From positions 1 through 23,209 of the IMG/VR virus record IMGVR_UViG_3300015263_000249: DNA of 23,209 bases; one strand, 5' to 3'. Position 1 is the first letter of the stretch, and each line of letters opens with the position of its first letter. Origin of the DNA: a virus. Positions 1,453 through 23,209 of this stretch are shown piece by piece. Below the pieces are notes generated by a model. That model ran no database searches, was not told the origin of the DNA, and worked only from the letters and a program-made list of their open reading frames with translations. The translations under genes were made by a program, and so were the position numbers.

Positions 1453-2565
1453 TCCAGTAGAAAGACTGTATTCGTTGTAGTAATAAGTGCTGCTGCTTGA
1501 GTAAAGGTATGCTATTACATCAGAAGAACCTCTAGTGTAGGAATTAGCACTATAAATATTTGTTACTGAATGTCCAAGAGTTGCTGGAGTTCCCCAAGTA
1601 TCATCACCGGCACCAGTGCTGTTTATATAGGCTGTGCCGCCAGAGTGATAATTGACACAGTATTGCGTTGTACCGTTAACAGCACTGCCATGACCGGACG
1701 TTCCTGAATCACTCGTACTGACGCCCGTGTATATTGTCGGGGTTCCGGGGGAGTCCGCATCGTTAAACCCGGCTGTAGCATAATTTGAACCACTATCGGG
1801 GTAGAAAAACCGTATCTTTCTTGTTGAACCGTCGAGGAACGAAACACCAGTATATCCTGTGACACCTGAACCATATGACGACAGTATTGATGTATCTATT
1901 GTGGTTCCTTGGTGACCAAAGCTATTATCTGAAAGAAGCGTTGAATACCAAAGGGTGGCAGTGCTGGACCCTCGATAACTAATGTGAACCCTGTCATTCG
2001 TGTCGTCTGCGTGAACAGCAAAGCTGTGCTGCTCACTTATCGTGTTCTTGCCAGCATTGCTGATCGAAGTGTCGATTGATCCCCAAGTGCCACCTGAACT
2101 CCTGATGGCAAGGCAGACGCGGGCATAATTGGTGCCCATGTTGGATTCTGGCGGGCCGTCATAGGTAACGACAACCGATCCGTCGGAGCGGACGGCAATG
2201 GAGCAATAAGTAACTCCTGTGCCGGTAGTGGCGTTGCCAACGCTTTCGTTGGTGGTTCCCCACGTATTGGTTGATGTGTTGAATGTATGATATTCAACGG
2301 TCCTTGTAGAACCATCAATCTGCGTAACTATATGTATTGTTGTTCCGCGTACAACAGCGTGAATACCTCCAACACCACTAACACTTGGCCTGTTGGAACT
2401 ATCCTGCTCCGTCCATCCAGACGATGGGTCGTCGCTATTGGCTTTAAGAACTACTAAATTTACGCCGCTTGCCTGTGCCACGATATAAAAAGATGATCCA
2501 ACCTTAAAAGGACCGCCACAGGGTTCGGCAAAAATATATGAACCAACGCTAATGGGCAGGGCCAT
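1..2565 (-). CDS. Giant repeat-containing phage surface protein (C-terminus beyond window)
   Basis: The minus-strand frame is open for 855 codons from the ATG at 2565 to the left edge with no stop, so the protein is truncated by the window. I read every codon on the minus strand. The ATG overlaps the stop of the upstream methyltransferase-like gene (TAATG). Residues 1 to about 370 are rich in Ser, Thr, Gly and Tyr with recurring short beta segments (for example IHIVTQIDGSTRTVEYHTF and VHISYRGSS), which look like beta-propeller or BNR-type blades. Residues about 372-441 and 506-855 are 18 copies of a 22-23-residue repeat of the form DATxGSYxITGTxAxL. A linker at about 442-505 holds two LLLSGDxxSGTD-like segments, a pattern I have seen in phage structural proteins. 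There is no signal peptide or membrane segment. Its place in the structural operon suggests a tail or capsid surface fibre; the function is inferred. Confidence 0.85.
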   Translation of the reverse strand, partial: MALPISVGSYIFAEPCGGPFKVGSSFYIVAQASGVNLVVLKANSDDPSSGWTEQDSSNRPSVSGVGGIHAVVRGTTIHIVTQIDGSTRTVEYHTFNTSTNTWGTTNESVGNATTGTGVTYCSIAVRSDGSVVVTYDGPPESNMGTNYARVCLAIRSSGGTWGSIDTSISNAGKNTISEQHSFAVHADDTNDRVHISYRGSSTATLWYSTLLSDNSFGHQGTTIDTSILSSYGSGVTGYTGVSFLDGSTRKIRFFYPDSGSNYATAGFNDADSPGTPTIYTGVSTSDSGTSGHGSAVNGTTQYCVNYHSGGTAYINSTGAGDDTWGTPATLGHSVTNIYSANSYTRGSSDVIAYLYSSSSTYYYNEYSLSTGYTLDATTAGSYAITGTAANLEQARTIDATTAGSYAMTGTAATLTVGSVITANAGSYSVSGTAATLTKTYRLPFGTGTSGQYNISPTNYTFGGTDLLNLSGTTGYLLLSGDAQSGTDRLLLSGDTGDNVYLQAGRTLDATTAGSYSVTGTDATFLYGYSVDATTGSYSVAGTAASLLHNHVIDATSGAYAITGTDATLQIGYVIDATTAGSYAINGTAASLLHGFLIDATTSSYTVTGTDATLTRAGGNKTIDALGGAYTISGTDATLEHGFVVSATSGSYTISGVDALLEQSRTVTATAGSYTITGTAASLLHGYEVSAANGSYAISGTAASLLHDFLIDATSGSYTVTGTDAVLDWSGSTGKTLVASGGSYAITGTVATLEQTRTLVASGGSYTVTGTAAGLSITARVVAASSGSYAVDGPSDAFGPGFGSGMQHGTALLYDRLIDATAGSYAITGTDASLYTGKTLAAASGAYSVNGTDVSL

Positions 2566-3383
2566 TACAGAAGCCCTCCGTAAGCCGTCATACCGCCATA
2601 CGTCACTGACGGTATGATCTTGTGGGTGGTGAACCCGTTAGCATCGAGAAACGTGCGCCAGTCAGCGTAGGACTTCCAGTTCAGATCGGGCTGCTGGAAT
2701 GCTTCTTCCTGCAAGGGAGACAGGATGTGAATAACCTGTGTCTGTGCATTCCCTTTCTGTGCCACGAATCGATCAATGGATTCGCATATCTTGAGTGCCG
2801 TTGCGTCATCGACGGAGTTCAATGTCTCCTCTGTGATTACATATGCCGGTGTATTTGAGAGAGTGTTGGCAACAGCGCGGATTGACTTGTTCGAGGACAT
2901 ATCCTCGCCAATTAGCCTGCCCCATCCCCTGTTGGCCGGGGCAGCACGACCGCCTTCCATGAAGTAGTCGAGCCAGTTCATGCCAGCTACGCCACGCGAT
3001 CTGGTAAGGCCCGTGTCATGAATCACATCGGTATCTGGATTGATGCCGACTTCTGCAAGGCATTCGCGGATTTCAGCTTCCTCGCTGGTATCCTTGTTGC
3101 CAAGAATGTAACTGGATGTGTCTATGCCGGTAACATCGATACCGAGGTCTGCAAGTCCGCGACCGGTCCAATTGAAACCACAGCCGACAACGACAGCCGA
3201 CTGACCAGACTGCATTCCTGCGCAATTGAAAAGGAGGGGGGAGAAGTGGGAGCGTTGATACCGGCCTACTGGCCAGTGATGATAATGAAGGCGAATGCCG
3301 GGACGATCAGCGGGATGACCGAACTCTCTTTCGGCATTGAAACTGTAGAAGCGTTTGAAATCTGCTTTGTCCCAGACCGGCAT
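2565..3383 (-). CDS. Rossmann-fold SAM-dependent methyltransferase-like protein
   Basis: The 272-aa protein has a class I methyltransferase-like motif I at residues 64-77 (VVVGCGFNWTGRGL), followed by the acidic residue expected to hold the SAM ribose in VTGIDTS (D88). That is the usual Gly-rich loop, strand and acid order of the family. The second half has no motif I can assign to a substrate class, so protein, lipid or DNA targets cannot be told apart. The ATG overlaps the stop of the upstream small gene (TGATG), and its own stop overlaps the start of the giant repeat protein (TAATG), so the three are probably translated together. The nearness suggests that it could modify a tail component, but that is inference. 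Confidence 0.6.
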   Translation of the reverse strand: MPVWDKADFKRFYSFNAEREFGHPADRPGIRLHYHHWPVGRYQRSHFSPLLFNCAGMQSGQSAVVVGCGFNWTGRGLADLGIDVTGIDTSSYILGNKDTSEEAEIRECLAEVGINPDTDVIHDTGLTRSRGVAGMNWLDYFMEGGRAAPANRGWGRLIGEDMSSNKSIRAVANTLSNTPAYVITEETLNSVDDATALKICESIDRFVAQKGNAQTQVIHILSPLQEEAFQQPDLNWKSYADWRTFLDANGFTTHKIIPSVTYGGMTAYGGLL

Positions 3384-3625
3384 CAGGCTTCCTCCCCGAT
3401 ATGGAAAACATCGCAGACCATGGCTTCCCCTATGTCATGATTAACGAGAAGGATTTCCTCATCCCACAAGCCGTTGCCGATAACATACGCTTCCGATGGT
3501 ATCTTGCCACTTGGGAAGGGGAGATGTTTCTGGACCCACATGCGAAACAGCGGGCCTACCCAAAGCCTGATGATCTTGTGTTCAAGCTGTGCCTTCTTGA
3601 TCTGGAAGATAAGACGGCCACACAT
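3383..3625 (-). CDS. Small hypothetical protein (start uncertain)
   Basis: This 80-aa reading starts at the ATG at 3625 and begins MCGRLIFQIKKAQLEHKI. It has no motif I recognise. The stop overlaps the ATG of the methyltransferase-like gene as TGATG, a junction used throughout this genome, which supports translation of this frame. The frame stays open upstream to a TTG at 3721, giving 112 aa and an overlap with the preceding gene; neither start has a good ribosome binding site. The plus strand is also open here but lacks such context. Confidence 0.5.
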   Translation of the reverse strand: MCGRLIFQIKKAQLEHKIIRLWVGPLFRMWVQKHLPFPSGKIPSEAYVIGNGLWDEEILLVNHDIGEAMVCDVFHIGEEA

Positions 3626-3680
3626 CTTGTACGAGCCGAAAGGCGTTGAATGTGGTGCAGGAGATGGGAGGGGATTTGCT

Positions 3681-4016
3681 CTAGCGGGATTCCCAGAAAG
3701 GCCGAGGATCGTCACCACCAATGCAGAACTGGCGATGCTTGCGACCGCATGTGCAATGGAAGATATAGATGTCAGGGGCCGTTTCCTTTGGGCTAGAATA
3801 GCGGGCTTCTATCTGGTGATTCTCCGGGTGACGGCAGCAGGAGGCAATCTTCTGGTTATGCTCCAGTGCCTCCGTCATACGTGCCGGGAGAAGATGATGT
3901 ACCCGCGCCACAGGAACCTTTGGGCACGCCTGTACATGGGTGCCTTCAAGTTTCTGCGGTTGTGGCTTCATGACGCCAAGGTCAGCCATGACCTTGGCTA
4001 CAGATGAAGTAGACAT
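3681..4016 (-). CDS. Small Cys/His-rich hypothetical protein
   Basis: The 111-aa protein starts at the ATG at 4016, 7 nt after the previous stop, with GAGGT as a close ribosome binding site. The C-terminal third holds CC, HCTCGRKHRQFC and nearby His residues, which could bind a zinc ion; no known finger spacing is matched. The frame is open upstream to about 4115, but that would run back into the preceding structural gene, so the internal ATG is preferred. It lies between beta-rich structural proteins and the methyltransferase-like gene. The function is unknown. Confidence 0.55.
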   Translation of the reverse strand: MSTSSVAKVMADLGVMKPQPQKLEGTHVQACPKVPVARVHHLLPARMTEALEHNQKIASCCRHPENHQIEARYSSPKETAPDIYIFHCTCGRKHRQFCIGGDDPRPFWESR

Positions 4017-4023
4017 ACAGACC

Positions 4024-4449
4024 TCATGCCATGGTGAAGATGCTGGCACCGAAGTTGACGGTGAACGTCTCGCCGTTGCCGAGCGTAAACGAAGAACCGT
4101 AATCCCAATACGCAATCAGGATGTCTGCGGTCGGGGTGGTTGGCGTGTCGTCATAGAGCGATACATACTGACCGGAAGTCCAGTCGGCAGCGGTAGCCGT
4201 CCATACAACGTCAGTTCCGCCAATGGTTTCCGTGCCAGCCGAATATGTGCCGGTGTTGAGGGTGTCTTCACCGCCAGCCGTGTAGCCGGTTCCGGTCACC
4301 TGTGTCAGGTTGGCAAGGGTTTCGTCCGTTGCCACGACCGGGGCATCGGAATGGAACACGACTTTCAGCGTGTCTGTGCCGCCATGAAGATCAATCTCCT
4401 TGTTGGCAAAATGCTGAATGAACAGGTTGTATTTGGTGTAAGTTGCCAT
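4024..4449 (-). CDS. Beta-rich phage structural protein, paralogue of the next gene upstream
   Basis: The 141-aa protein has a good ribosome binding site (AGGAG, 7 nt before the ATG). It shares a layout with the 138-aa product just upstream: an N-terminal helix, a DTLKVVFHSDA-type strand, the signature VTGTGYTAGG near the middle, then a Trp-containing strand, an LYDD turn and a DYGSSF segment near the end. Short beta-rich Thr/Gly proteins of this kind occur in tail and neck regions of phages, but I cannot say whether this one is a tail, neck or decoration protein. Its place after the adaptor genes fits the virion. Confidence 0.65.
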   Translation of the reverse strand: MATYTKYNLFIQHFANKEIDLHGGTDTLKVVFHSDAPVVATDETLANLTQVTGTGYTAGGEDTLNTGTYSAGTETIGGTDVVWTATAADWTSGQYVSLYDDTPTTPTADILIAYWDYGSSFTLGNGETFTVNFGASIFTMA

Positions 4450-4463
4450 TTTCGTCTCCTAAA

Positions 4464-4880
4464 TTAGGCAAGCCTTATAAGGGCGTCGTTCGCCGTCGCA
4501 GCCGGGAAGGTTACAACGAACGGGCTTGCCGAGGATGTGCGGTCGGAACCGAAATCCAAGACAATGACGGCCTTGTTCGATTTGGATGAATTGTAGATGA
4601 GCGCACCGCGAGCGGTGATTGTCGATGAAGCCCATGTCACATCAGAGAAATCGACGTAGGCCACTCCACTTGCGAAGGCTATCGCCGCCCCGGTGAGCGT
4701 TGCCCCACCCGCTGTATAGCCTGTTCCCGATACCTCGTTCGACGTTGTATAGACAGTTGTCGAATTTCCGAGTGAAGCATCGGAAGTGTACAGGGCGATC
4801 TTGAAAGTATCGCTCGTGAAGTCATGGGTGCCGGACAGGAGTTCTTCCTTGAAGCTGTCTGTCAGGCCCTGAACAATCAT
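4464..4880 (-). CDS. Beta-rich phage structural protein
   Basis: This 138-aa protein starts at an ATG overlapping the stop of the adaptor gene (ATGA). It reads DTFKIALYTSDASLGN, then VSGTGYTAGG, a short Ala/Gly segment, VTWASSTITARGALIYN and a final DFGSDRTSSASPFVVTFP. The YTAGG core and order of strands match the 141-aa downstream protein, so the two are probably tandem duplicates that diverged. I recognise the SGTGYTAGG pattern from small structural proteins of other tailed phages, without a firm functional name. Confidence 0.7.
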   Translation of the reverse strand: MIVQGLTDSFKEELLSGTHDFTSDTFKIALYTSDASLGNSTTVYTTSNEVSGTGYTAGGATLTGAAIAFASGVAYVDFSDVTWASSTITARGALIYNSSKSNKAVIVLDFGSDRTSSASPFVVTFPAATANDALIRLA

Positions 4881-5509
4881 ACCGGTATCCTCGCATCAGG
4901 CGTCCTGTACGTATCCTTCGGCACACGGCCTTCGCAGATAAGCTTGAGGTCCGTCACGGCCTTTTGGAACAGGGACGTATATTGCTTGAACACATCCTGA
5001 TCGCCCTTCAGGAATGCATATCCATGTATGAGCGATCCGTAGAGAAGAGCGTTTTCCGCGTTTTCCGAGAGCCAAGTCGTACCACTCGACGCTCCGTCAG
5101 CAAGGGAGGCTGGTTTGTAATAATAGTGAAGTTCCACTTCATATGTATCGTCAGGAGTTGGTCCAACAATGAAGTTCGCGTCATCCCATTGTGCAAAGTA
5201 TCTTGGCCTTCCGGTTGATGTTGACGGAAATGCTTCGCGGATAAAGTTCACATCCTTGTTCTCAAGGAAGTACATATCCGTGTCGGTAATGGCGAAGGAG
5301 TAGCTGGACAGGAAATCCGTTGGCAGTCCTACGTACCTGATGCCGACAGCACAGTTAGTGGTCGAGTTCTTGCGAAGGTCAGGTATCTGGACCTGCCTGT
5401 ATATATCTTCTTCGGCACCTTTGATGAACTGCGCGATGTTGGAATTGAAAGTCGTTTCATCGACCTCCAAGAAATCCTTCAACATCTGCTGGAGTTCAGC
5501 GTAAGTCAT
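4877..5509 (-). CDS. Phage neck or adaptor protein
   Basis: The 210-aa protein begins MTYAELQQMLKDFLE. I chose this ATG because it overlaps the preceding stop as ATGA; the frame is open for 23 more codons, but those lie inside the upstream gene. The N-terminal helix followed by FIKGAEEDIYRQVQIPDLR resembles head-to-tail adaptor proteins of podovirus-like phages, which bind below the portal. The middle is beta-rich (VELHYYYKPASL), and the helical C-terminus includes ENALLYGSLIHGYAFLKG, common in this family. It sits beside the 223-aa gp4-like protein, so the two may form successive rings. The family call is from pattern memory. Confidence 0.65.
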   Translation of the reverse strand: MTYAELQQMLKDFLEVDETTFNSNIAQFIKGAEEDIYRQVQIPDLRKNSTTNCAVGIRYVGLPTDFLSSYSFAITDTDMYFLENKDVNFIREAFPSTSTGRPRYFAQWDDANFIVGPTPDDTYEVELHYYYKPASLADGASSGTTWLSENAENALLYGSLIHGYAFLKGDQDVFKQYTSLFQKAVTDLKLICEGRVPKDTYRTPDARIPV

Positions 5510-5817
5510 GTCGTTACTGTCACCCTTCCAGAGGAAGTATCGATTACGCCGGAGCCTGAAGCACCGACAGGGTTCCATCCAAACAGCCGCCTGCTGTCAA
5601 CCAGTTCCGGGCTATCGGAACGGGAGTTCTTTACAGACTGCTTGTCATTCGTCTTGATCCCCCGCGTATCCAGTTGGGGATGAGACACATCCCAACACTT
5701 GCGACAGACGAGGCGTCCGGTCGGCTTGCCAATATAATACTCCTCGCGGAGCGTATTGAGCCGATACCGTTGCCCGCACCGGTCACAGATACCGGGGACA
5801 CGATTTGAAAAATTCAT
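5506..5817 (-). CDS. Small zinc-ribbon protein
   Basis: The 103-aa protein has two CxxC pairs, C11-DR-C14 and C38-RK-C41, separated by 23 residues: the usual spacing of a zinc ribbon. The ribbon begins GICDRCGQRYR and ends LVCRKCWDV, close to small phage zinc-ribbon proteins I have seen next to adaptor genes. The tail after residue 50 is Ser/Asp/Arg-rich and likely disordered. Both junctions are coupled: its ATG overlaps the upstream stop and its stop overlaps the downstream ATG, each as ATGA. The role is unknown; a structural or nucleic-acid-binding part in assembly is possible. Confidence 0.7.
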   Translation of the reverse strand: MNFSNRVPGICDRCGQRYRLNTLREEYYIGKPTGRLVCRKCWDVSHPQLDTRGIKTNDKQSVKNSRSDSPELVDSRRLFGWNPVGASGSGVIDTSSGRVTVTT

Positions 5818-6485
5818 CTTAAATCAGGAACGAGCCAGAGAGAGGCCTTTTCCCTGTCCTCCTGTGATGCAAGATTGAACTGGCGTTCGTACTCCATCTG
5901 AAGCATCTGTATGCGGTCGCTTGCCTGCGGTGTCTTCATGGACAGGTAATAGGCAAGACCGCTTGTGAGTGCCGGATAGAAACGGGGAGGGATGTCCATC
6001 GTGTTCGTGTAGTTTCCGCCGTCTTCAATCCTGCGCACCTTGTAATAGACAAGTGTTCCTGCTTCTGTTGGTACAGGCCAGATATGCACCACCGGACCTG
6101 TCAAAAGCCTGTTCACCCAGAACTGGCTTGGGTCACCTGTCTGGTTCTTGTTGGCGATAGAAGACCATTGCGACACGGAGATGCGCGTCATCTGCCTGTC
6201 GTTTTGAGATGAACCACTACCAGTTCGCCATGTGGCATCCAGTACATCAATCGTGTCCGTTTCCAGCGAAACACTCGTGTCACCGGCAGCAACAGAAGCG
6301 GTCGTCTCTTCGATTGCCCACATGTTGATGCCACGGTTTGCCCACTCCTTCGTCAAAAGATCAAGGGATCGTCTGGCCGTTTTCAAGTGGTATCCAGACC
6401 GGACTTCCACACCGACCATTTCGTAAGCTTCTTCAATAATATCAAGCAGATCGAGGCTAAACGAAGTAGTCCCAGAAGTAGTCAT
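5814..6485 (-). CDS. Head-completion or packaged-DNA stabilisation protein, gp4-like
   Basis: The 223-aa protein begins MTTSGTTSFSLDLLDIIEEA, followed by EMVGVEVRSGYHLKTARRSLDLLTKEWANRG. This N-terminus is typical of phage neck proteins of the P22 gp4 type, which sit under the portal and keep DNA inside. The middle is a beta domain (DATWRTGSGSSQNDRQMTRI), and PPRFYPALTSGLAYYLSMKTP followed by a helical end completes the pattern. The ATG at 6485 overlaps the preceding stop as TGATG; a TTG one codon earlier is possible but unneeded. It pairs with the 210-aa adaptor 300 bp downstream. Confidence 0.75.
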   Translation of the reverse strand: MTTSGTTSFSLDLLDIIEEAYEMVGVEVRSGYHLKTARRSLDLLTKEWANRGINMWAIEETTASVAAGDTSVSLETDTIDVLDATWRTGSGSSQNDRQMTRISVSQWSSIANKNQTGDPSQFWVNRLLTGPVVHIWPVPTEAGTLVYYKVRRIEDGGNYTNTMDIPPRFYPALTSGLAYYLSMKTPQASDRIQMLQMEYERQFNLASQEDREKASLWLVPDLR

Positions 6486-6643
6486 CAACCTTTAACTTTC
6501 TTCAGACGAGGATTCTTTTTCTTGGCCGCTGTACTTGCCTTGCGTGTCTTGGAAGCAAGGATCGCATCAGCAGCTTTCTTCGAATATCCCTCACTCTGGA
6601 TTTTCTTGGACACGGCCTTGAAGCCGGGATGCTTGCGTTTCAC
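6485..6643 (-). CDS. Lys-rich 52-aa phage mini-protein
   Basis: The 52-aa basic protein starts at a GTG preceded by AGGAGAAG. It reads MKRKHPGFKAVSKKI, then a GYSKKAADAILASKTRKAS core and a KKKNPRLKK tail. I recognise the HPGFKAV start, the ILAS-TRKAS core and the NPRLKK end as a small conserved phage protein without a known function. The net charge is strongly positive, so it probably binds nucleic acid. It starts 1 nt after the sulfotransferase-like stop and its own stop overlaps the neck gene start, so it is coupled to both. Confidence 0.8.
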   Translation of the reverse strand: MKRKHPGFKAVSKKIQSEGYSKKAADAILASKTRKASTAAKKKNPRLKKVKG

Positions 6644-6644
6644 T

Positions 6645-7112
6645 TCAACTTCTCCTGTAAAACCGCCTCACGTAATCGTATCCGTAGATTTCAGAGAAAT
6701 CGATATACGGAATCTCGTCTGGTATCGGTGCAGAACTTCCATTCACCTTCGGCCAGTCTGTCTTCAGTTCTTTCCCGACAAGCTGCCCCATCTTCGCCAG
6801 CCATTCTTCTCTTCTTTCCACATCAACCGGAAGAAAGTGGATCGTGTAAGTCATTGAAAAATGGTTCATTCTTTCCCAACAGTTCAGGAAAGCAGCGCCT
6901 CTCTTGATGTGTTCGTTCGGCGTTGTGTTGAAGCGCCTTACCCATGACTTCCAGACGTCTTCAGGCTTCCGAAGCGGAGCGACAATCAAGTCGGCCTTCT
7001 TCAGATGTTCCTCTATATTGGCGTCGAAGACGTGGATGAATTTATCAAGGGAGAGAAGATGTTGCAGGAAATGCGATCCTGTATGCGGGATTGAAGTGAG
7101 GAATATGTTCAC
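6645..7112 (-). CDS. Short sulfotransferase-like protein
   Basis: The 155-aa product starts at a GTG overlapping the stop of the Lys-rich gene (GTGA). Its N-terminus, [16 protein letters not shown], fits the PAPS 5'-phosphosulfate-binding loop of sulfotransferases (P-x-S/T-G-S/T-x-F/W-L). A second element, [17 protein letters not shown] at about residue 45-61, fits the 3'-phosphate-binding Arg...Ser motif. The rest is shorter than typical enzymes of 250 residues or more, so it may be a minimal or non-canonical member. A plausible role is sulfating a surface glycan or virion protein; that is inference. Confidence 0.6.
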
Positions 7113-7255
7113 TTCTTCTTTTTCTTCTTCTTGCGGGCTTTACCTGCGACAGAATACGCAATGGCAATAGCCTGCTTCTGCGGCTTACCTGCCTTCATCT
7201 CCGTCCGAATGTTCTCGCTTATCACTTTCCGTGACCGACCCTTCTTCAGAGGCAT
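7109..7255 (-). CDS. Lys-rich 48-aa phage mini-protein
   Basis: The 48-aa protein starts at an ATG preceded by GGAG at good spacing. It reads [20 protein letters not shown], then [20 protein letters not shown] and a run of Lys. The MPLKKG start, (K/R)PQKQAIAIA core and poly-Lys end are a very common small phage protein of unknown function. It overlaps the 3' end of the upstream gene by 71 nt in another frame, so that gene's acidic C-terminus is encoded in the same DNA. Its stop overlaps the GTG of the sulfotransferase-like gene. Basic charge suggests nucleic-acid binding. Confidence 0.85.
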
Positions 7256-7415
7256 CGTTTTTCTCCAAAGGATTTGACCAACCGGGGGGAGCCATCAGAA
7301 CCGCCCATCCATTCCGATGGTCAACATCGTGGTGGTTCTCGTCGTAAACCCGTATCCATCCCTTATCAGCCCATTCCTTCTGGTGCTTCCTTGGGACGTA
7401 AACGAGTTCGGTCAT
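7185..7415 (-). CDS. Small hypothetical protein with acidic tail
   Basis: The 76-aa protein reads [20 protein letters not shown], then a Trp-rich centre with [17 protein letters not shown] and a tail rich in Glu, Ser and Asp. I know no family. The ATG overlaps the preceding stop as TGATG. The last 24 codons are overlapped by the start of the Lys-rich mini-protein in another frame, so the acidic tail is constrained by that gene and may not matter functionally. Confidence 0.55.
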
Positions 7416-7735
7416 CAGAATCCCCTGTTCGGTACGTACAAGCAGTATATGTGTGTGCCGTCTTTACCACCGGCAGTGCATAAATGGTAGAACTCATCCT
7501 TCGACATGTGGATGCGGTTGTCCCCGTAACCGATTATTTCCGGCTTGTCTCCGTTCTGGACAAGGTAACCATCGGGGGTAACCTTGACACGGTTCGTGAC
7601 AATCTGCCGACAATCAACTCCAGAGCAGCACTTGAAATCGTATTTCCAGCCAGTGGGCGCATCATGAGAATACGCTATCGTTGACAAGATTAAAACCCAT
7701 GTGACGCAAGCAGGTATCAGTTTCCAGTTACCCAT
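7415..7735 (-). CDS. Secreted Cys-containing small protein
   Basis: The 106-aa protein has a clear signal peptide: MGNWKLIPACVTWVLILSTI followed by AYS, with likely cleavage before HDAPTGW. The mature part has KCCSGVDCRQI, a GYLVQNGDKPEIIGYGDNRI segment and an LCTAGGKDGTHIYCLYVP end, suggesting disulfide-linked secreted protein. Proteins with DAPTGW, CCSG-DCR and CLYVP blocks are familiar to me from Rhizobiales genomes, so this may hint at the host and may be host-acquired. The start lies 19 nt inside the tailspike gene end, and its stop overlaps the next start. It could act at the cell envelope during late infection, but the role is unknown. Confidence 0.7.
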   Translation of the reverse strand: MGNWKLIPACVTWVLILSTIAYSHDAPTGWKYDFKCCSGVDCRQIVTNRVKVTPDGYLVQNGDKPEIIGYGDNRIHMSKDEFYHLCTAGGKDGTHIYCLYVPNRGF

Positions 7736-9576
7736 TTCTCTTCCAATTCTTTAACCCTTGCCGATAGTTCCTTTATAGCGCCAACAAGATGAGCAACAAG
7801 CTTCGATGGATCGATACCTTGCATCGTATCCCCATCCTTTTCCCCGGATACCGCGAACGGAATATGTTCCTGAACTTCATGAGCCAAGAAACCTATGTAT
7901 GGCGTACCGTCAGATTTCCATGTGAAAGATACAGGATTAAGCTGCTCAACGACATTAAGAGCGCCATGATATGGGGTAATATTATCTTTCAGTCTGTAAT
8001 CTGAAGATGTGTTGTATGCTGTTGCCGATCCACTGGTGTGAATCGATCCGACTTCACCATTGCCGTTGACAAAGGATGCTATCGCAGTGTCGGCTGTTCC
8101 AGCCGTGGTGATCCTCCAGCTTGTATCTGCGTAGAAAGAACCTGACGTGCCACTGTTGGGGTAGAAAATTGTTTGCGTCCCATTCGTCTTTATTGTCCCT
8201 ACAGTGCCATTGGTATTATAGAATACTGCTTGGGTCGATTCTGACGCGCTGGCTAGGTTACCAACCTTGAAGGAGTCCTGTCCATAGTATCCATCGGTAG
8301 AATTTGCCTGTGTATAAAATACAGATTTGCTGCCGCTAGTGTTTATATGGCCAACCTTTGTTCCGCTATTATTCATCAACTGGAACGTTTCGTGATCCGC
8401 CGTTCCTGTATGACTAACAACGAGACCGTCCTCTGAAAGTACGGTTCCATATGATCCAACAGTGTATCGTATGGGTCCAGTTACATATTGCGTTTGCGTA
8501 TCAAGACGGAATTTCTCGACCCTGTTATTTGCTCCGTCTGTAGAGCAGAAACAGATAATACCATTCAGTGGCACTGCTATTCCTACGCCGGGAGCCATAT
8601 TGCCGAAGAAACCACCTCTGTAATCCCACCCGACAGTGGAACACGCAAGCATAATGCTCCCGTCATCAAGAGACGTGTTGGCTGTCGCCCCCGATTCCAC
8701 GTAACATCCGATCAATATAAGCCCTTGATAATCAGCGCCGGGATCATAGAAGGCTCCAGATGTATTTCCTGAACTTTGGCATCCAATAAATATGTTGGTG
8801 TAATAAGCCTCGTTCTTGACACCCCACCCACCGTTATTCAGAAACTGGCAGTTTATGGCAGTGCCAACCTGTGCGTCCGGTCCATGAACATAAAAGCCAT
8901 CACCCAAACAGTCGCGCACAAAGACATTTGTCATCCACCAGTTGTCTGCAATGCCGTTGGTGGTGTCTCCGTAAAATTCTATTCCAATTCCTGAAAAACT
9001 TCTAACACTTACATATTCAAGATGAATCGTTGTCGTCGCGTATATACCTCTTCCAGAAACACCCGCAGCGTTGCAGTACAGCGCGACATTTCTGATTATT
9101 GTGTGCGTTCCTTCTTGCGGCGTACTCGGACTATCATTCCCATTATAAACTCTTATGCCATCAGTATTTGACGGAAAGATAAGTTCTGCGGCAGAACCTA
9201 AATGGTGGTCTGTTCCATTGTTACCTTCAATTAAAACGTCCTTGTCTATTCCCCATGTTCCATTGAGAAAATATCTTCCAAATGGAATGATAATCCTGTT
9301 TCCTTGGGAAGTGGAAGAACCGGCACATGCGACTGCATTCTGGAAAGCGGTCAAATCATCGGTCACACCGTCCCCGACTGCGCCGTACCTCTTTACATTG
9401 CAAACAGGATAACGGTAATCGGTTGGCGTGACACCAGCCGCCGTTTCTTCTGCCGTCAGTTCATAAAACGCGATTGATACAACGAAGTCGCGCAAATCCT
9501 GCGGGGAAATATCCCCCGTTGTATTGTCAGCAAACAGAGAAAGGATCGATGATCTTGTTCGTGGAGTATCAACCAT
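7717..9576 (-). CDS. Tailspike or tail fibre with pectate-lyase-like domain and S74 autocleaving chaperone
   Basis: The 619-aa protein has three recognisable parts. The N-terminal 35 residues (TRSSILSLFADNTTGDISPQ) match the virion-attachment leader of many phage fibres. Residues about 60-380 form a pectate-lyase-3-like beta-helix, starting NVKRYGAVGDGVTDD. Residues about 390-520 have three repeats of a G-x-VG-x-I-x-TSG pattern before FY or AY, fitting an intertwined beta stalk. From about 521 the Peptidase_S74 domain starts SSDYRLKDNI, holding the Ser-Lys dyad (S525, K530), and ends in a leucine-zipper-like helix. By family precedent the S74 domain folds the trimer and cuts itself off. The ATG overlaps the stop of the upstream gene (TAATG). 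Confidence 0.9.
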   Translation of the reverse strand: MVDTPRTRSSILSLFADNTTGDISPQDLRDFVVSIAFYELTAEETAAGVTPTDYRYPVCNVKRYGAVGDGVTDDLTAFQNAVACAGSSTSQGNRIIIPFGRYFLNGTWGIDKDVLIEGNNGTDHHLGSAAELIFPSNTDGIRVYNGNDSPSTPQEGTHTIIRNVALYCNAAGVSGRGIYATTTIHLEYVSVRSFSGIGIEFYGDTTNGIADNWWMTNVFVRDCLGDGFYVHGPDAQVGTAINCQFLNNGGWGVKNEAYYTNIFIGCQSSGNTSGAFYDPGADYQGLILIGCYVESGATANTSLDDGSIMLACSTVGWDYRGGFFGNMAPGVGIAVPLNGIICFCSTDGANNRVEKFRLDTQTQYVTGPIRYTVGSYGTVLSEDGLVVSHTGTADHETFQLMNNSGTKVGHINTSGSKSVFYTQANSTDGYYGQDSFKVGNLASASESTQAVFYNTNGTVGTIKTNGTQTIFYPNSGTSGSFYADTSWRITTAGTADTAIASFVNGNGEVGSIHTSGSATAYNTSSDYRLKDNITPYHGALNVVEQLNPVSFTWKSDGTPYIGFLAHEVQEHIPFAVSGEKDGDTMQGIDPSKLVAHLVGAIKELSARVKELEEKWVTGN

Positions 9577-10733
9577 TAAATTCCACCACCGTCAGATATT
9601 GACCATGAGTAAGTTGTTGCGAGGTCTGATCGTGCTGTAGCAGCCGCACCACCAAGAGTGTAGACAGAAGTTCCAAAGTTCGCCGTTACAGTTGATTTGA
9701 CGGCTTGTGCATCCCAAGCGATCAACGTGGCATCATAGTTAGCCGTTGATAAAGCCGCACCATTAAGAAAATTCGTCAAATCTGTAATCTTGGTCACATT
9801 GAATCCCGATGGATTTATGTCTGTTGCCCCGCAGTTCTGGAACATCAGGCGCATATCTGTCACGTTTGATGTATTGAACCCCGTTACATCCAGAGAAGAA
9901 AGTCCAGTAGTTCCACTAAACATGGCATACATATCTGTGACGTTGGCTGTTACAAACCCCGAAACGTCAAGAGTGGAGAGAGCCGAGCAGCCATCAAACA
10001 TACTGGTCATTGTCTGGGCAGACGAAGTATTTAGAACAGTTGCGTCAAAGGAAGCCAACGATGTACACCCAAGGAGTAAATATGCGAATGCCGCAATATT
10101 TGATGTATCCCACCCTGTTATGTTAAGACTTGTCATAGACGAACAATCAGTCAATAAATACTGGAGACTTGTATTATTAGGAAATTTCCAGCGGGAAAGA
10201 TCAAGACTGACGATTGAACTGCAACCACGAAAAAAGTTTCCAAGATTTACCGCTGCGCGGGTATTGAGTGTGCTTACATCTATTGTTGATATGCTCGAAC
10301 AATTGTTCAAGCATCCATACCATTCCGTTACAGCAGATGTGTCACAATATCCAGCAGTGAACTCCGTCATGTTGGAGCATCCTTGAAATGCATAATCCAT
10401 CCTGCCCCATCCAACCACTCCAAGATTGGTAACCTTCAACACCTTTAGCCTGTCTCCAGCACCATTGAAGAAGATGTTGGCAAATTGACCACTTATGGAA
10501 ACGTTGTAAGTTCCAGCAGACGCATAAGTATGGGCAAGATTTGCGTCATCGTATGCGGTTACAGATGACGAGTTCGTGTCTCCCCAATCAATCGTGCAAT
10601 TGAACGTTCCAGAATTTTGGCACGGAATAGTGAAAGTTTCACTTGCTGTTGTCGTCTGGACTTGGAAGTCGAAGGTCGTGCTTCCAGCGCCAGCGCCAAA
10701 TAGACCACCAGCGTTTACAATACCGCCAACCAT
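9576..10733 (-). CDS. PKD-like plus BspA-type leucine-rich-repeat surface protein
   Basis: The 385-aa protein starts with a Gly/Ala-rich segment and a PKD-like domain at about residues 20-90 (CTIDWGDTNSSSVTAY then LAHTYASAGTYNVSISG). It continues as BspA-type (DUF285) leucine-rich repeats of the form F-x-G-C-S-x-(L/M)-x-x-(L/F)-D-(V/L)-(S/T)-x-(L/F/W)-x-T-S-N/A-V, at least eight units, with the FNTSNVTDM pattern typical of the family. The C-terminal YDATLIAWDAQAVKS and YSWSISDGGGI are the usual end cap. BspA repeats bind host ligands in bacteria. In a phage, beside the tailspike, it is probably an accessory host-binding or capsid-surface protein. Both starts and stops overlap neighbours (TGATG, TAATG). 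Confidence 0.85.
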   Translation of the reverse strand: MVGGIVNAGGLFGAGAGSTTFDFQVQTTTASETFTIPCQNSGTFNCTIDWGDTNSSSVTAYDDANLAHTYASAGTYNVSISGQFANIFFNGAGDRLKVLKVTNLGVVGWGRMDYAFQGCSNMTEFTAGYCDTSAVTEWYGCLNNCSSISTIDVSTLNTRAAVNLGNFFRGCSSIVSLDLSRWKFPNNTSLQYLLTDCSSMTSLNITGWDTSNIAAFAYLLLGCTSLASFDATVLNTSSAQTMTSMFDGCSALSTLDVSGFVTANVTDMYAMFSGTTGLSSLDVTGFNTSNVTDMRLMFQNCGATDINPSGFNVTKITDLTNFLNGAALSTANYDATLIAWDAQAVKSTVTANFGTSVYTLGGAAATARSDLATTYSWSISDGGGI

Positions 10734-19092: not shown

Positions 19093-20565
19093 TTAATAAT
19101 ACTCATATGACGAGTACCTTCTCTCTTCATCGTCATCTTCATCGTAGTCATGCTCCGTCCTTACCCATCCTCCCTGACGAAAACGGGTGAGTGCCATGGT
19201 TACAGTGTCAACATAGTCATCATGCTCGCCTGCGGGGAACGCAGCACATTCCTCGATGACTTCCTGATGTGCCGCCCTGACCTTGCGGGCATACACCATC
19301 TTGGATGCGAATATGTCGGTGACAGCATTCACGCGGGCGATCTTGTCGTTATCCCCGCGCTTGGTCCCGCGTCCTACCACCACGTCCTGTACAGGTATGC
19401 CCATCTTCCTCAACTCGAATATGAGGGGATGGCCTGCCGCCCTTGCCTCGATCAGGCATATGTCAGGTTCGTAATCTTGGTAGAGTTCGAGAACATTTCT
19501 CTTCAGTTCAGGAAATTCCCATTTCCCCCTGACAGCATCGATCAGCATTGCACAGTTCTGGTCTGTCTCCTCATTGAAGAAGATGCCCCATATCGTGCAG
19601 GCAGAGTAGTCAGAGCGTGTCGATGCAGTGAAGGCCGTGTCCCAAGACATGATGACGGCTTCGAAGGGAGGAAGCTTTGCATCCCAATCCTGCCAGTATT
19701 CACGCTTGATAAGAGCGCCTTCTTCGGAAACGGGGTTCTGCTGGTACTGTGCATTCCACCGTGCCACAGGAATAGAGGCGCGGGTCTTTCTCAACTCCTC
19801 TATCTTCCAATACTCCGGCCAAATTGGCCGCTCGGGCTTGTCGTCCTCCGGTGGAAGGATGGCTGGCAGTTCCACAATCTCCCATTGGTCAGAGTCCGGT
19901 TCGTTCATCTGCTTCTTGATAAGCTGTCCTGTCAGATCAAGAAGGCTCCATCGGGTCATGACCACGACCACAGCCGCCCCCGGCTGAAGGCGCTGGCGAG
20001 GTCCTGTCTCGTACCACTCCATGACCTTGTGATAAATGTCGGGGTTTGATTCCCCCAATATGCCTTCCTGCTCCGATACCGGATCATCGATCACGAAAAG
20101 ATCGGCACCCTTACCGGCAACAGCACCGCCAACACCAATAGCGAAGTATTCCCCACCCAAGTTCGTTGACCACCTGCCAGCAGCCTTTGAATCCTGCGAC
20201 AGGTTAACTTCTGGGAATATGGTATTGAAATCCTTGGAGTTTATGATGTTACGCACACGACGACCGAAACCGACAGCCAGTTCGGAAGTGTGGGATGCCT
20301 CGATGATCTTTTTCTTGGGATACCTTCCAAGGAAATACGCCGGAAGAAACACCGAGGCAAACTCTGATTTTGTGTGGCGTGGAGGCATATTGATAATGAC
20401 ACGCTTCTTGCGCCCCTCGATCACGTCATCGAACAGCTTGGCGATGATCTTGTGATGCGACCCCTCCACGAAATCGGGCCACATGTACTTGATGAAGGGG
20501 AGAAATCCGGTTCGCGCACTTTCGAGAGTGTTGGCTTTTTCCAACTCTGTAAGGAGGCCAAGCAA
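19093..20565 (-). CDS. terL: Terminase large subunit (packaging ATPase and nuclease)
   Basis: The 490-aa reading starts at a TTG. Walker A-like MPPRHTKSEF spans residues 60-69; Walker B ADLFVIDD spans 154-161 with the catalytic acid; VVMTRW (about 201-206) fits the coupling motif. The C-terminal RNase H-like nuclease has the acids of MSWDTAF (D309), CLIEARA (E373) and EHDDYVDT (D450, D453). The frame stays open upstream to a TAA at 20643-20641, and the 25 extra codons encode a helical segment (ISFNLEDIAKHIDKIPVDRQ) that looks like a true N-terminus, but contain no ATG, GTG or TTG. The TTG itself has no ribosome site. The start is therefore unresolved. No small terminase subunit is identified nearby. 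Confidence 0.9.
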   Translation of the reverse strand: MLGLLTELEKANTLESARTGFLPFIKYMWPDFVEGSHHKIIAKLFDDVIEGRKKRVIINMPPRHTKSEFASVFLPAYFLGRYPKKKIIEASHTSELAVGFGRRVRNIINSKDFNTIFPEVNLSQDSKAAGRWSTNLGGEYFAIGVGGAVAGKGADLFVIDDPVSEQEGILGESNPDIYHKVMEWYETGPRQRLQPGAAVVVVMTRWSLLDLTGQLIKKQMNEPDSDQWEIVELPAILPPEDDKPERPIWPEYWKIEELRKTRASIPVARWNAQYQQNPVSEEGALIKREYWQDWDAKLPPFEAVIMSWDTAFTASTRSDYSACTIWGIFFNEETDQNCAMLIDAVRGKWEFPELKRNVLELYQDYEPDICLIEARAAGHPLIFELRKMGIPVQDVVVGRGTKRGDNDKIARVNAVTDIFASKMVYARKVRAAHQEVIEECAAFPAGEHDDYVDTVTMALTRFRQGGWVRTEHDYDEDDDEERRYSSYEYY

Positions 20566-20642: not shown

Positions 20643-20672
20643 AAAAAAAAGGCAGGGACCGAAGTCCCTGCC
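20643..20672 (-). terminator. Near-perfect intrinsic terminator at the terminase start
   Basis: The minus-strand arms GGCAGGGAC and GTCCCTGCC pair perfectly over 9 bp around a TTCG loop, followed by eight T. The terminase reading frame begins at once after it. Confidence 0.9.
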
Positions 20673-20771: not shown

Positions 20772-20808
20772 TGCTGATCTTCTCCACGCCCTGCTTGCGG
20801 TCATTTCT

Positions 20809-21222
20809 TTACTTGCCGCCATTACCGGGATTAGAAAAGCCACCCTCGTTCCCGTGACCACCGGGGTTGGTGTCGTCACCGCCACCGGAATGGTTTTGGT
20901 GCCCTTCGTGGCCATGTCCATGACCGTGGCCGTGGCCTCCACCGCCGCCGCCATTGCCAGACCCGCCATCATCACCAGAGCCAGAACCAGAACCACCGGA
21001 ACCGCCGCCGCCAGAACCACCAAAGCTTGGGCCGCCACCAGAATCATCTTCGCTCGATCCATTATCAATCCCCGCCCCGTCATGCTCCCAATTGTTGGGG
21101 GTTGCCATGGAAGGATCATTGCACAGGAATGTCATATTGAACAGTTTGCAGTGAAGGGCTTCTGCTTTCGCAGGAACCGTCAGAAAGGCGGCAAGTGCCA
21201 CCGTAGTCAACAAAGTTTTCAT
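20809..21222 (-). CDS. Secreted Gly/His-rich low-complexity protein
   Basis: The 137-aa product starts at the ATG at 21222, with an excellent AAGGAG site. It has a signal peptide (MKTLLTTVALAAFLTVPAKA) with likely cleavage before EALHC. The mature protein has two Cys (24 and 33), an acidic Ser/Gly stretch, then about 60 residues of Gly, Ser, Asp and His. Residues 97-111 hold a GHGHGH-type cluster that could bind Ni, Zn or Cu. No family is recognised. The length suits a small secreted or periplasmic factor; a role in lysis, metal capture or adhesion is speculation. Its ATG overlaps the stop of the 38-aa micro-ORF (ATGA). GC skew and low complexity make it unlike its neighbours. Confidence 0.75.
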   Translation of the reverse strand: MKTLLTTVALAAFLTVPAKAEALHCKLFNMTFLCNDPSMATPNNWEHDGAGIDNGSSEDDSGGGPSFGGSGGGGSGGSGSGSGDDGGSGNGGGGGGHGHGHGHGHEGHQNHSGGGDDTNPGGHGNEGGFSNPGNGGK

Positions 21223-21335
21223 TTCTCTCTCCTTGCTATCGCCCCGCCGATTATACACAAGACGGGGGATTCTTCATAGGCGTCGCGTGAAAAGATACGC
21301 CCGTCCTTTGTTTCACAGTATTCTCCAGCCTGCAT
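21219..21335 (-). CDS. Micro-ORF, 38 aa
   Basis: Reading from the ATG at 21335, the product begins MQAGEYCETKDGRIFSRDAY and ends IIGGAIARREK. The start lies inside the preceding micro-ORF and the stop overlaps the secreted gene (ATGA), which supports translation. The preceding GWRIL junction instead points to a GTG at about 21316, which would give a different 21-aa product; both are possible. Confidence 0.45.
   Translation of the reverse strand: MQAGEYCETKDGRIFSRDAYEESPVLCIIGGAIARREK
21250..21255 (-). promoter_or_regulatory. Perfect -10 hexamer before the secreted gene
   Basis: TATAAT lies 28 nt upstream of the secreted gene's ATG. No convincing -35 box is found at 16-18 nt, so it is only a weak promoter candidate. 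Confidence 0.25.
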
Positions 21336-21450
21336 GTCTTCTAAGCATCCTGTATCGATTTTCCACGGCAAACTGTATGGAAAAAGGATTGTTTACCCAC
21401 TTCTCCAACGGGACACAGAAGATTGAGTGTGGGAAGCCCAAGGTCCACAT
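21313..21450 (-). CDS. Micro-ORF, 45 aa, tandem copy 2
   Basis: The product begins MWTLGFPHSIFCVPLEKWVN, continues NPFSIQFAVENRYR and ends RRHAGWRIL. It is the same length as the 45-aa copy just upstream and matches it at MWT, the VPL(E/D)xW core, SIQFAVENR and the GWRIL end, so it is a tandem duplicate. The ATG overlaps the previous stop (TAATG). The family is unknown; no signal or membrane segment is seen. Confidence 0.75.
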   Translation of the reverse strand: MWTLGFPHSIFCVPLEKWVNNPFSIQFAVENRYRMLRRHAGWRIL

Positions 21451-21587
21451 TAAAGTATTCTCCAACCAGTTTGTTCCGTTAGCAACCTTCTTCTGTTCTC
21501 CACTGCAAACTGTATAGATACAAAGTTGCCCCACCACTCATCTAAAGGGACAGCGAAACTTACTTTCGGGAAATAGTAAGTCCACAT
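21450..21587 (-). CDS. Micro-ORF, 45 aa, tandem copy 1
   Basis: The product begins MWTYYFPKVSFAVPLDEWWG, continues NFVSIQFAVENRRR and ends TEQTGWRIL. It has two adjacent Trp and is paralogous to the next ORF downstream. The ATG overlaps the previous stop and is served by the GGAGGA sequence in the GWRRL codons of the ORF upstream. I recognise no family. Confidence 0.75.
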   Translation of the reverse strand: MWTYYFPKVSFAVPLDEWWGNFVSIQFAVENRRRLLTEQTGWRIL

Positions 21588-21799
21588 TAAAGTCTCCTCC
21601 ATCCTGTGTGGAACATGGTGGTGGCATAAGCAACTATGTACTTCGTCTCTACACGTTCATGGATATTCATTGTCGGCACATGAAAGCTGAAGTCCTTGCT
21701 TAACTCGATCCGTGGGTATGACTTGCGTGTCTCGGAGTCGTACACCCAAGGCTGGTTTCCTATCAGTATGGCATCATATCTACCCAATGGCCCTGCCAC
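21587..21799 (-). CDS. Micro-ORF, 70 aa
   Basis: The 70-aa product starts at a GTG one base after the preceding stop and includes GRYDAILIGNQPWVYDSETR, ELSKDFSFHVPTMNIHE and a final TTMFHTGWRRL. The GWRRL end overlaps the ribosome binding site of the next ORF. It carries the FxVP and GWR features of the array. The function is unknown. Confidence 0.65.
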   Translation of the reverse strand: MAGPLGRYDAILIGNQPWVYDSETRKSYPRIELSKDFSFHVPTMNIHERVETKYIVAYATTMFHTGWRRL

Positions 21800-21800
21800 T

Positions 21801-21953
21801 TTACGCCCTTACAAAGTTTGTTCCCGACATGCTCCAATAGAAAGCCGGGAATGATCCACCTACTTTCTTGAACCCATTCCCGTAACGGGTTGCCATGTAG
21901 TACAAGCCTGACCCGTAACGGTCAAAATCACGGAGAATGAACTGTTCTCTCAT
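21801..21953 (-). CDS. Micro-ORF, 50 aa
   Basis: The product begins MREQFILRDFDRYGSGLYYM and ends GGSFPAFYWSMSGTNFVRA. AAAGAG precedes the ATG. The frame is open for 12 more codons, but that ATG has no binding site and lies within the upstream ORF. It is aromatic-rich with no known domain. Confidence 0.6.
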   Translation of the reverse strand: MREQFILRDFDRYGSGLYYMATRYGNGFKKVGGSFPAFYWSMSGTNFVRA

Positions 21954-21964
21954 GAATTGCTCTT

Positions 21965-22081
21965 TCAAAATTCGGCCCACCAAATCCATTTGTACCGGAG
22001 TTTAGTCTCCCAATAATAGAAGCAAGTGAAGCCTTTCCAAGGGATGAAACGATGTCTTCGTTCCAAGCAGTCTATTTTCAC
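21965..22081 (-). CDS. Micro-ORF, 38 aa, very aromatic
   Basis: The product begins with a GTG-encoded Met and reads KIDCLERRHRFIPWKGFTCF, then YYWETKLRYKWIWWAEF. Twelve of 38 residues are Trp, Tyr or Phe. The GTG overlaps the previous stop (GTGA). It could insert into or bind a membrane or an aromatic-binding groove; this is speculation. Confidence 0.55.
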   Translation of the reverse strand: MKIDCLERRHRFIPWKGFTCFYYWETKLRYKWIWWAEF

Positions 22082-22251
22082 AGTACCCATACCCACATCC
22101 TTTCATCTACTGCCCACTTGGGAAACTTGCTCCCAAATCTCTTGGATGGCGGCGTTTTCATTGTTTTGTCTGGGATGAAGAATGGGACGCGCTCACCCCA
22201 TTCCATCTCAACTCTCCTGACTTCGTACTCGATTATAAGAGTACGGCCCAT
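22078..22251 (-). CDS. Micro-ORF, 57 aa
   Basis: The product begins MGRTLIIEYEVRRVEMEWGE, continues RVPFFIPDKTMK and ends WAVDERMWVWVL. The ATG overlaps the stop of the 96-aa gene (TAATG). It holds the VP-x-IP variant of the array motif. No family is recognised. Confidence 0.65.
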   Translation of the reverse strand: MGRTLIIEYEVRRVEMEWGERVPFFIPDKTMKTPPSKRFGSKFPKWAVDERMWVWVL

Positions 22252-22541
22252 TAAAGCACCAGCGCCCTCTTGATAAGTTCGATGGCCTTGTCGGAAGTGA
22301 TGGGGCCAAGTTCCTCATCCTTCACCTTCGAACGATCAATGAGCGCCAGTGCATTACCTGACGGCTCCTCACCGCAGATAACAAAGACGAGGGAGCCAAT
22401 GGCCTTGCCCCTCATCTCGATCCCTCCTGAAAGGACGGCGCAATAAAGGTTCTCACCCTTTACAGCGAGGTTCATGACCGCATCGATAGCTGCATCATAG
22501 AACGGGTTCTTGTATTCAGTCTTTTCTTCAGTCTTGGTCAT
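22251..22541 (-). CDS. Hypothetical protein, 96 aa
   Basis: The 96-aa product begins MTKTEEKTEYKNPFYDAAID and reads AVMNLAVKGENLYCAVLSGG, IGSLVFVICGEEPSG and ends SDKAIELIKRALVL. The ATG at 22541 is preceded by an AAGG site and follows a promoter at 22.6 kb; an upstream start at 22619 is open but would span that promoter. It is larger and less aromatic than the array members and may be an unrelated regulatory or structural early protein. Confidence 0.65.
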   Translation of the reverse strand: MTKTEEKTEYKNPFYDAAIDAVMNLAVKGENLYCAVLSGGIEMRGKAIGSLVFVICGEEPSGNALALIDRSKVKDEELGPITSDKAIELIKRALVL

Positions 22542-22574
22542 TGACCCTTCCTTTCTGGTTTCTTCGTTTTTGCA

Positions 22575-22585
22575 GACAAATTGTC
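22575..22585. promoter_or_regulatory. Operator-like palindrome at the start site
   Basis: GACAA-A-TTGTC is a perfect 11-bp palindrome lying on the predicted +1 of the 22.6-kb promoter, a common place for repressor binding. Confidence 0.45.
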
Positions 22586-22591
22586 GCCCCA

Positions 22592-22619
22592 ATACTACCC
22601 CGCCGCTGGCCGGTGTCAA
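22592..22619 (-). promoter_or_regulatory. Internal early promoter
   Basis: TTGACA (22619-22614, preceded by C), a 16-nt spacer and TAGTAT (22597-22592) fit an alphaproteobacterial sigma70 promoter. It lies over the end of the 71-aa ORF and drives the 96-aa gene and the micro-ORFs behind it. Confidence 0.65.
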
Positions 22620-22831
22620 GGGCTTCCGGGCCTCGTGAAACCCTCTATCATGTCGCCGGGATAATAAATTCCGTACTTGTTTCTCCCGTTGAACGGGACG
22701 CAGAAATCAGCCCAAGAAAATACGAGCGTGTATTCCGGGTCATAATGATTGCGTGACTCTGGATGATAGAACCTTGCACTGACCGTGCTGAATATTTCCA
22801 TGCCAAGGGCTTCTACGTATCGTTCAGCCAC
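22616..22831 (-). CDS. Micro-ORF, 71 aa
   Basis: The product starts at a GTG with a full AGGAGGT site, which lies inside the DPKEVG codons of the ORF upstream. It reads MAERYVEALGMEIFSTVSAR, then FSWADFCVPFNGRNKYGIYY and ends GFTRPGSP. The FCVP block is shared with the 45-aa copies. The function is unknown. Confidence 0.7.
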   Translation of the reverse strand: MAERYVEALGMEIFSTVSARFYHPESRNHYDPEYTLVFSWADFCVPFNGRNKYGIYYPGDMIEGFTRPGSP

Positions 22832-22991
22832 AGCCCACCTCCTTCGGGTCTTCCCCCTTGAAAATATAAAATCTCATCGTGTGACAGACGAAAACGGGAC
22901 GTCTCTCGTTCTTTCTGAACGTGGAAATGATTGTCGTGTAGTAGTTCCTGTTCTTCACAGGAACTTCATATCGTCCTGTCGGCAGTGTCAT
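22824..22991 (-). CDS. Micro-ORF, 55 aa
   Basis: The product begins MTLPTGRYEVPVKNRNYYTT and ends YIFKGEDPKEVGCG. The ATG overlaps the preceding stop (ATGA) with an AAGGA site in the previous ORF's DPKE codons. The C-terminal DPKE motif repeats that of its neighbour. Confidence 0.7.
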   Translation of the reverse strand: MTLPTGRYEVPVKNRNYYTTIISTFRKNERRPVFVCHTMRFYIFKGEDPKEVGCG

Positions 22992-23173
22992 CTTATTTCC
23001 TTCGGGTCTGCTCTGACCTCGTTCTTTTCTATTGCGTAGAACTTCCACCCGGAACTGAAGAAAGAGGGAACCGTTCTGCCGAAGTCGGGTATGTATTTTG
23101 TGATAAATTCCGAATAGAAGCCGGTGTGGTAGTCGTAGTTGTGGACCCGTATGACTTTCGATTTCTGGATCAT
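22988..23173 (-). CDS. Micro-ORF, 61 aa
   Basis: The product begins MIQKSKVIRVHNYDYHTGFY, continues SFFSSGWKFYAIEKN and ends RADPKEIR. The ATG overlaps the preceding stop (ATGA) and is served by GGAGG inside that ORF's GWRHL codons. It is aromatic-rich and unlike any family I know. Confidence 0.7.
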   Translation of the reverse strand: MIQKSKVIRVHNYDYHTGFYSEFITKYIPDFGRTVPSFFSSGWKFYAIEKNEVRADPKEIR

Positions 23174-23209
23174 AAGTGCCTCCACCCCTTGCGTGTTTCG
23201 AGAGGGACG
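23170..23209 (-). CDS. Micro-ORF, 3' end only
   Basis: The final 12 codons read VPLETRKGWRHL-stop, so the array continues to the right. It has both the VPLE and GWRxL features of the 45-aa copies. Confidence 0.6.
   Translation of the reverse strand, partial: VPLETRKGWRHL

Follow-up and report, generated by a model that had tools for sequence, protein, structure and literature searches.

The DNA stretch analyzed here (IMG/VR record IMGVR_UViG_3300015263_000249, 23,209 nucleotides, referred to below as the window) is a fragment from an uncultured tailed phage, and directly upstream of its terL gene (terminase large subunit) we found an array of tiny open reading frames (ORFs) on the minus strand. 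We read this array as a polycistronic unit of tiny phage accessory genes that may have arisen partly by tandem duplication and partly by rapid divergence from a small protein of the FxVP...GWRxL type, an interpretation to which we give an even chance. As stated in a preliminary description of this DNA, there are about twelve ORFs in the array, ten of them complete (41-96 codons) together with an ORF tail (Z) and a weaker candidate (K'). In the order of transcription they are Z, A, B, C, a gap of 74 nucleotides (nt), D to J and K', followed by a gene for a protein of 137 amino acids (aa) and a hairpin with a run of eight T residues (T8). Analysis of the sequence establishes that the ORFs are coding and tightly tiled, that most are served by a Shine-Dalgarno site within the upstream gene, and that a predicted terminator stands before terL.

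The junctions between the ORFs are nearly all overlaps of 1-13 nt or gaps of 1-11 nt, as had been noticed earlier, the exception being the 74 nt between C and D, so that nine of the ten junctions from Z to J are an overlap or a gap of a few nt. When same-strand ORFs of at least 36 codons were chained with junctions of -20 to +15 nt, the chain covered 1860 of 1861 nt. In dinucleotide shuffles the coverage averaged 391 nt and never exceeded 877, and none of them (0/300) tiled alike; chain coverage on the opposite strand was 159 and 255 nt in two sub-blocks. A Shine-Dalgarno 4-mer at a spacing of 4-10 was found at eight of ten starts, against 13.6% of 59 other ATG or GTG codons (binomial p = 4e-6, a slightly flattering value as the alternative starts of F and G were partly chosen by context). 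Only the Shine-Dalgarno site of D lies in the gap; the others fall within the preceding gene or where it ends. The aromatic richness claimed for the array was also borne out, with Phe, Trp and Tyr (F/W/Y) making up 19.2% of residues in nine ORFs (D left out) compared to 8.6% genome-wide, and the other frames of the same DNA fall below this level except for frame 0 of the A-C block, which contains A and C themselves. Several members have low codon scores, as would be expected if the ORFs had arisen by chance in DNA that is non-coding or encodes RNA, but this explanation is extremely improbable in view of the shuffle tiling, the Shine-Dalgarno and aromatic counts, the substitution pattern of I and J described below and the absence of any Rfam match. 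Taken together, this is good sequence evidence for the reality of a whole string of tiny genes, and the array ORFs are confirmed in this sense as protein-coding.

The design of the array is best seen gene by gene (all on the minus strand). Z (23173-23208), the tail cut by the contig edge, ends in VPLETRKGWRHL and a TGA at 23170-23172 that overlaps the ATG of A as ATGA, and it contains the GGAGG Shine-Dalgarno site of A (spacing 5). ORF A (22988-23173; 61 aa) has a positive codon score in frame and a C-terminus DPKEIR, where AAGGA serves as the Shine-Dalgarno site of B at spacing 6. ORF B (22824-22991; 55 aa) overlaps A by 4 nt and ends in DPKEVGCG, where AAGGAGGT is the Shine-Dalgarno site, at spacing 5, of ORF C (22616-22831; 71 aa), which starts with GTG, overlaps B by 8 nt and contains FCVPF. 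After the gap, ORF D (22251-22541; 96 aa) is not aromatic-rich and has the strongest codon score in the array, and ORF E (22078-22251; 57 aa) is joined to it by a TAATG stop-start overlap, with an ATG lacking a Shine-Dalgarno site. In ORF F (21965-22090; 41 aa) the ATG at 22090 is preceded by AAGGA (spacing 7), a better Shine-Dalgarno site than that of the alternative GTG at 22081; the 38-residue product of the latter (21965-22081) was found to have the 12 F/W/Y residues reported for it, as does the longer form. ORF G (21801-21953; 50 aa) follows an 11-nt gap and has a weak Shine-Dalgarno site. ORF H (21587-21799; 70 aa) contains FHVP and ends in HTGWRRL, and its end, GGATGGAGGAGACTTTAATG, holds the Shine-Dalgarno site of ORF I (21450-21587; 45 aa), which is followed by its paralogue ORF J (21313-21450; 45 aa). 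K' (21219-21335; 38 aa; score 3.4) shares 23 nt with the end of J and has no Shine-Dalgarno site of its own, and its TGA overlaps the start of the next gene by ATGA; its standing as a real gene is uncertain. These genes are, as had been pointed out, small enough for length cut-offs to miss, and tiny phage genes are under-annotated while being a main source of host-directed and counter-defence proteins.

The clearest relationship within the array is that between I and J, in which 45 codons align without gaps at 60% identity (alignment z = 24). The non-synonymous and synonymous rates (dN and dS) for this internal pair, from which alone a ratio was obtained, are 0.34 and 1.69, giving a rough dN/dS of about 0.2 as dS is near saturation, and the differences by codon position are 14/11/23. 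I and J are thus certain as paralogues, and their alignment points to a tandem duplication under purifying selection. The same pattern bears on the possibility that the array derives from one or more long genes disrupted by frameshifts, which could yield consecutive ORFs in changing frames. We consider this very improbable since all ORFs have starts of their own, most of them with a Shine-Dalgarno site in place, all four copies of GWRxL retain the stop that follows them, and I and J are under purifying selection. In addition, two of the three frames were scanned with their stops translated as X and matched no PHROGs family, and the broken-gene explanation was rejected on the intact starts and on this result.

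Two recurrent blocks, FxVP and GWRxL-stop, had been singled out in the preliminary description. Both do recur (Z shares VPL and GWRxL-stop with H, I and J), but the GWRxL block, like the DPKE ends of A and B, is in part the Shine-Dalgarno site of the next gene. The last codons are GGG TGG AGG CAC TTA TGA in Z, GGA TGG AGG AGA CTT TAA in H, GGT TGG AGA ATA CTT TAA in I and GGC TGG AGA ATA CTG TGA in J, where TGGAGG/A is the Shine-Dalgarno site of the following gene and reads in frame as Trp-Arg. At the ends of A and B (GAC CCG AAG GAA / GAG) the site lies in another register and AAGGAG/A reads as Lys-Glu. Recurrent C-terminal motifs in such arrays can therefore be partly translated Shine-Dalgarno sites, which calls for caution. 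GWRxL is conserved at the protein level as well, because its Gly uses all four codons (GGG, GGA, GGT and GGC in Z, H, I and J) and its Leu three (TTA, CTT, CTT and CTG) while the residues are unchanged; I and J have the weaker site TGGAGA and nevertheless retain GWR. The F.[VI]P motif occurs in five of nine ORFs against 0.30 expected; if I and J are taken as a single ORF, it occurs in four of eight against 0.26 (p = 5e-5, a value not free of selection as the motif was first named from the same data). In most members it lies far upstream of the Shine-Dalgarno region.

Kinship beyond I and J is suggested by the pairs A/B (p 0.003), A/H (0.009), C/J (0.015) and H/J (0.025) among the 45 pairs tested. 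Without the last eight residues, A/B changes from 0.003 to 0.125 and H/J from 0.025 to 0.54, and A/H also loses significance, whereas C/J keeps it. In another explanation, ordinary orphan accessory genes with no common theme accumulated beside a transcription boundary and were packed by genome compactness, the shared blocks being read-through of Shine-Dalgarno sites (Trp-Arg and Lys-Glu) plus one recent duplication. We regard this as a serious contender, at somewhat less than even chances. The two dipeptides correspond exactly to the in-frame sites, the similarity outside I/J is mostly C-terminal, and such genes are usual in this phage type, the HTVC023P-type pan-genome comprising 2,007 genes with a core of 13 (PMC9599517). 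On the other hand, Shine-Dalgarno read-through leaves the synonymously varying Gly and Leu of GWRxL unexplained, as it does the enriched F.[VI]P upstream of that region, and the aromatic content of the array is twice that of the genome.

The junctions suggest how the proposed unit of accessory genes could work. A ribosome finishing one ORF would meet a Shine-Dalgarno site and a start codon at once and could re-initiate there, and termination-reinitiation passing from gene to gene would yield matched amounts of many short proteins. A Shine-Dalgarno site in the 3' end of the upstream gene is a recognised signature of termination-reinitiation (Huber et al., PMC6728339). The array resembles the termination-reinitiation pairs of bacteria and archaea in its ATGA/TAATG overlaps and intragenic Shine-Dalgarno sites, but differs from them in having about ten junctions in a row and genes of about 50 codons. 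A gene that ends in the ribosome-binding site of its successor is a self-contained unit that can be duplicated, and this design would explain the growth of such strings in simple structural terms. We tentatively suggest a new family of aromatic-rich phage effectors of about 45-70 residues (FxVP core, GWRxL end) that multiply by tandem duplication; their conserved C-terminal motif would serve the following copy as its ribosome-binding site, and every duplication would by itself bring along a coupled gene. We hold this proposal to be possible, and somewhat doubtful.

The unit would have its own promoter or promoters and be switched separately from the structural genes. A sigma-70-like promoter (TTGACA-16 bp-TAGTAT, 10 of 12 consensus matches) was found at 22592-22619 on the minus strand, before D and in the only sizeable gap of the array. 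This candidate is supported by its position and not by number, as the region has about as many promoter-like sites as its shuffles do on average. An intrinsic terminator with a 9-bp stem, a UUCG loop and T8 is predicted at 20651-20672 (minus strand), between the unit and terL, which argues for a separate, insulated unit. The preliminary description had placed the array before the late region; the genes are indeed tightly packed and upstream of terL, but with the terminator at 20672-20651 in between they are not simply the head of that region. The location of the array on the strand of the late genes, directly upstream of terL, might also suggest structural, lysis or virion-associated small proteins made late with the terminase. 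This is improbable, as the strong terminator splits the unit from terL and no match to phage structural or lysis families was found.

The products would be small binding proteins acting on host proteins, as in host-takeover or counter-defence modules; this is the weakest step of the proposal. Exposed aromatics, small size, orphan status and paralogue turnover are all compatible with a host-directed role, and by analogy with such modules the products probably act on the host, while a host-takeover or anti-defence role, which had been suggested before, is plausible. Anti-CRISPR and counter-defence clusters consist of small orphan proteins in co-transcribed strings. The array is like them in its strings of small orphans, but no family match and no Aca-type regulator were seen. 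The host-takeover genes of Bacillus phage SPO1 are mostly small and early, with strong promoters and ribosome-binding sites (PMC6873191). Like the array, the SPO1 module (26 genes) is a cluster of mostly small genes with ribosome-binding sites whose products have no recognisable domains, and it has promoter signals of its own, for which the array offers a candidate; it lies, however, in the terminal repeat, and its early timing and its action on the host have been demonstrated, while the array is known from sequence alone. No sequence relation between the two was found, and the paralogous FxVP/GWRxL blocks are a feature of the array.

Several observations weigh against the array being a unit of related accessory genes with a host-directed role. 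A codon model trained on the long genes of the phage gives no positive score for F, I or J, the similarity outside I/J is weak and mostly confined to the last eight residues, which leaves common descent of all members unproved, and there is no homologue or fold match pointing to a function. Small accessory genes may also have a part in the virion or in lysis, or no important role.

No match to the array ORFs was found in Pfam, PHROGs, NCBIfam or PADLOC, none of which is a library dedicated to anti-defence (PADLOC covers defence proteins and not counter-defence). No homologue was found among phages by tblastn of I, C and H or by blastn of the array region. Six queries (I/J, D, A, C, H and E) run against IMG/VR recovered contig 3300015263_000508 and nothing else, and H and I/J run against GTDB gave no accepted homologue; both sets of scans use exact short peptide patterns and thus cover close relatives only, so that distant ones are possible. 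Two GTDB matches in Lachnospiraceae, in genes with PKVGFAVPLDKW that we take to be asparagine-synthase-like, were judged to be chance, I and J having no Pfam match, and a weak match in a relative (L019) was rejected as it is antisense to a long gene. Exact-DNA extension beyond the contig edge found nothing. The predicted structure of I/J has a predicted local distance difference test score (pLDDT) of 62 and is not usable. Among about 50 terminase-bearing relatives, many of them on short contigs, no comparable array was found nearby, and their longest chain of aromatic-rich ORFs has at most three members compared to six here. By terminase the closest phages are podoviruses of the HTVC023P/HTVC027P type and the freshwater relatives DSL-LC04 and Pag-Yong1; none of these phages that were inspected has such an array upstream of terL. 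The array is ordinary in kind for phages and unusual in its density, aromatic content and internal duplication.

ORF D is another kind of protein than the aromatic-rich members. A single-sequence prediction gave an alpha-beta-beta-beta-alpha fold (mean pLDDT 75), for which a Foldseek search returned nothing below E 0.04 (threshold E <= 0.001). It resembles an early-region gene of the same phage, at 1630-2019 (plus strand) of a second record, IMGVR_UViG_3300015263_000508 (G001, also L054; z = 7.0, 200 shuffles). The product of that gene has a hydrophobic N-terminus and a C-terminal half resembling ORF D, and D-like domains may be spread over the phage.

G001 (69,002 bases) is nearly identical to the window, with eight differences over 10,576 bases; these lie at position 19396 or lower, outside the array. 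The record stops at window position 21671 and contains positions 20800-21671, ORF J included, unchanged, thus providing independent confirmation only up to the middle of ORF H. Its positions 1-10000 run divergent to the late genes and carry many small genes on the plus strand, as well as an ATPase-like gene at 4372-5475 and an ORF at 6646-7863 (these names are impressions). Comparable genes in L019 are likewise divergent to terL.

Downstream of the array, in the same unit, the gene for the 137-aa protein (20809-21222, minus strand) has AAGGAG at spacing 6, and its product has a signal-peptide-like N-terminus and a Gly/Ser/His-rich tail with HGHGHGHGHEGHQNH that is possibly metal-binding; a PHROGs scan of this protein gave no match. 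The DNA-packaging gene terL adjoins the array at 19093-20565 (minus strand) and encodes a protein 46-52% identical to the terminases of Pelagibacter phages HTVC027P and HTVC023P, phage DSL-LC04 and Planktothrix phage Pag-Yong1. At 20565 it has no ATG and would start with a TTG without a Shine-Dalgarno site; its frame is open upstream as far as a TAA in the terminator tail, and a non-standard start further upstream is possible. Two repetitive proteins are encoded elsewhere on the minus strand of the window. The large one at 1-2565 contains many (I/A)DATxGSYxxxGTxAxL units and is probably a tail or surface protein, and that at 9576-10733 has many repeated LDVSxxxTxxVTxMxxMF-like units and resembles bacterial surface repeat proteins.

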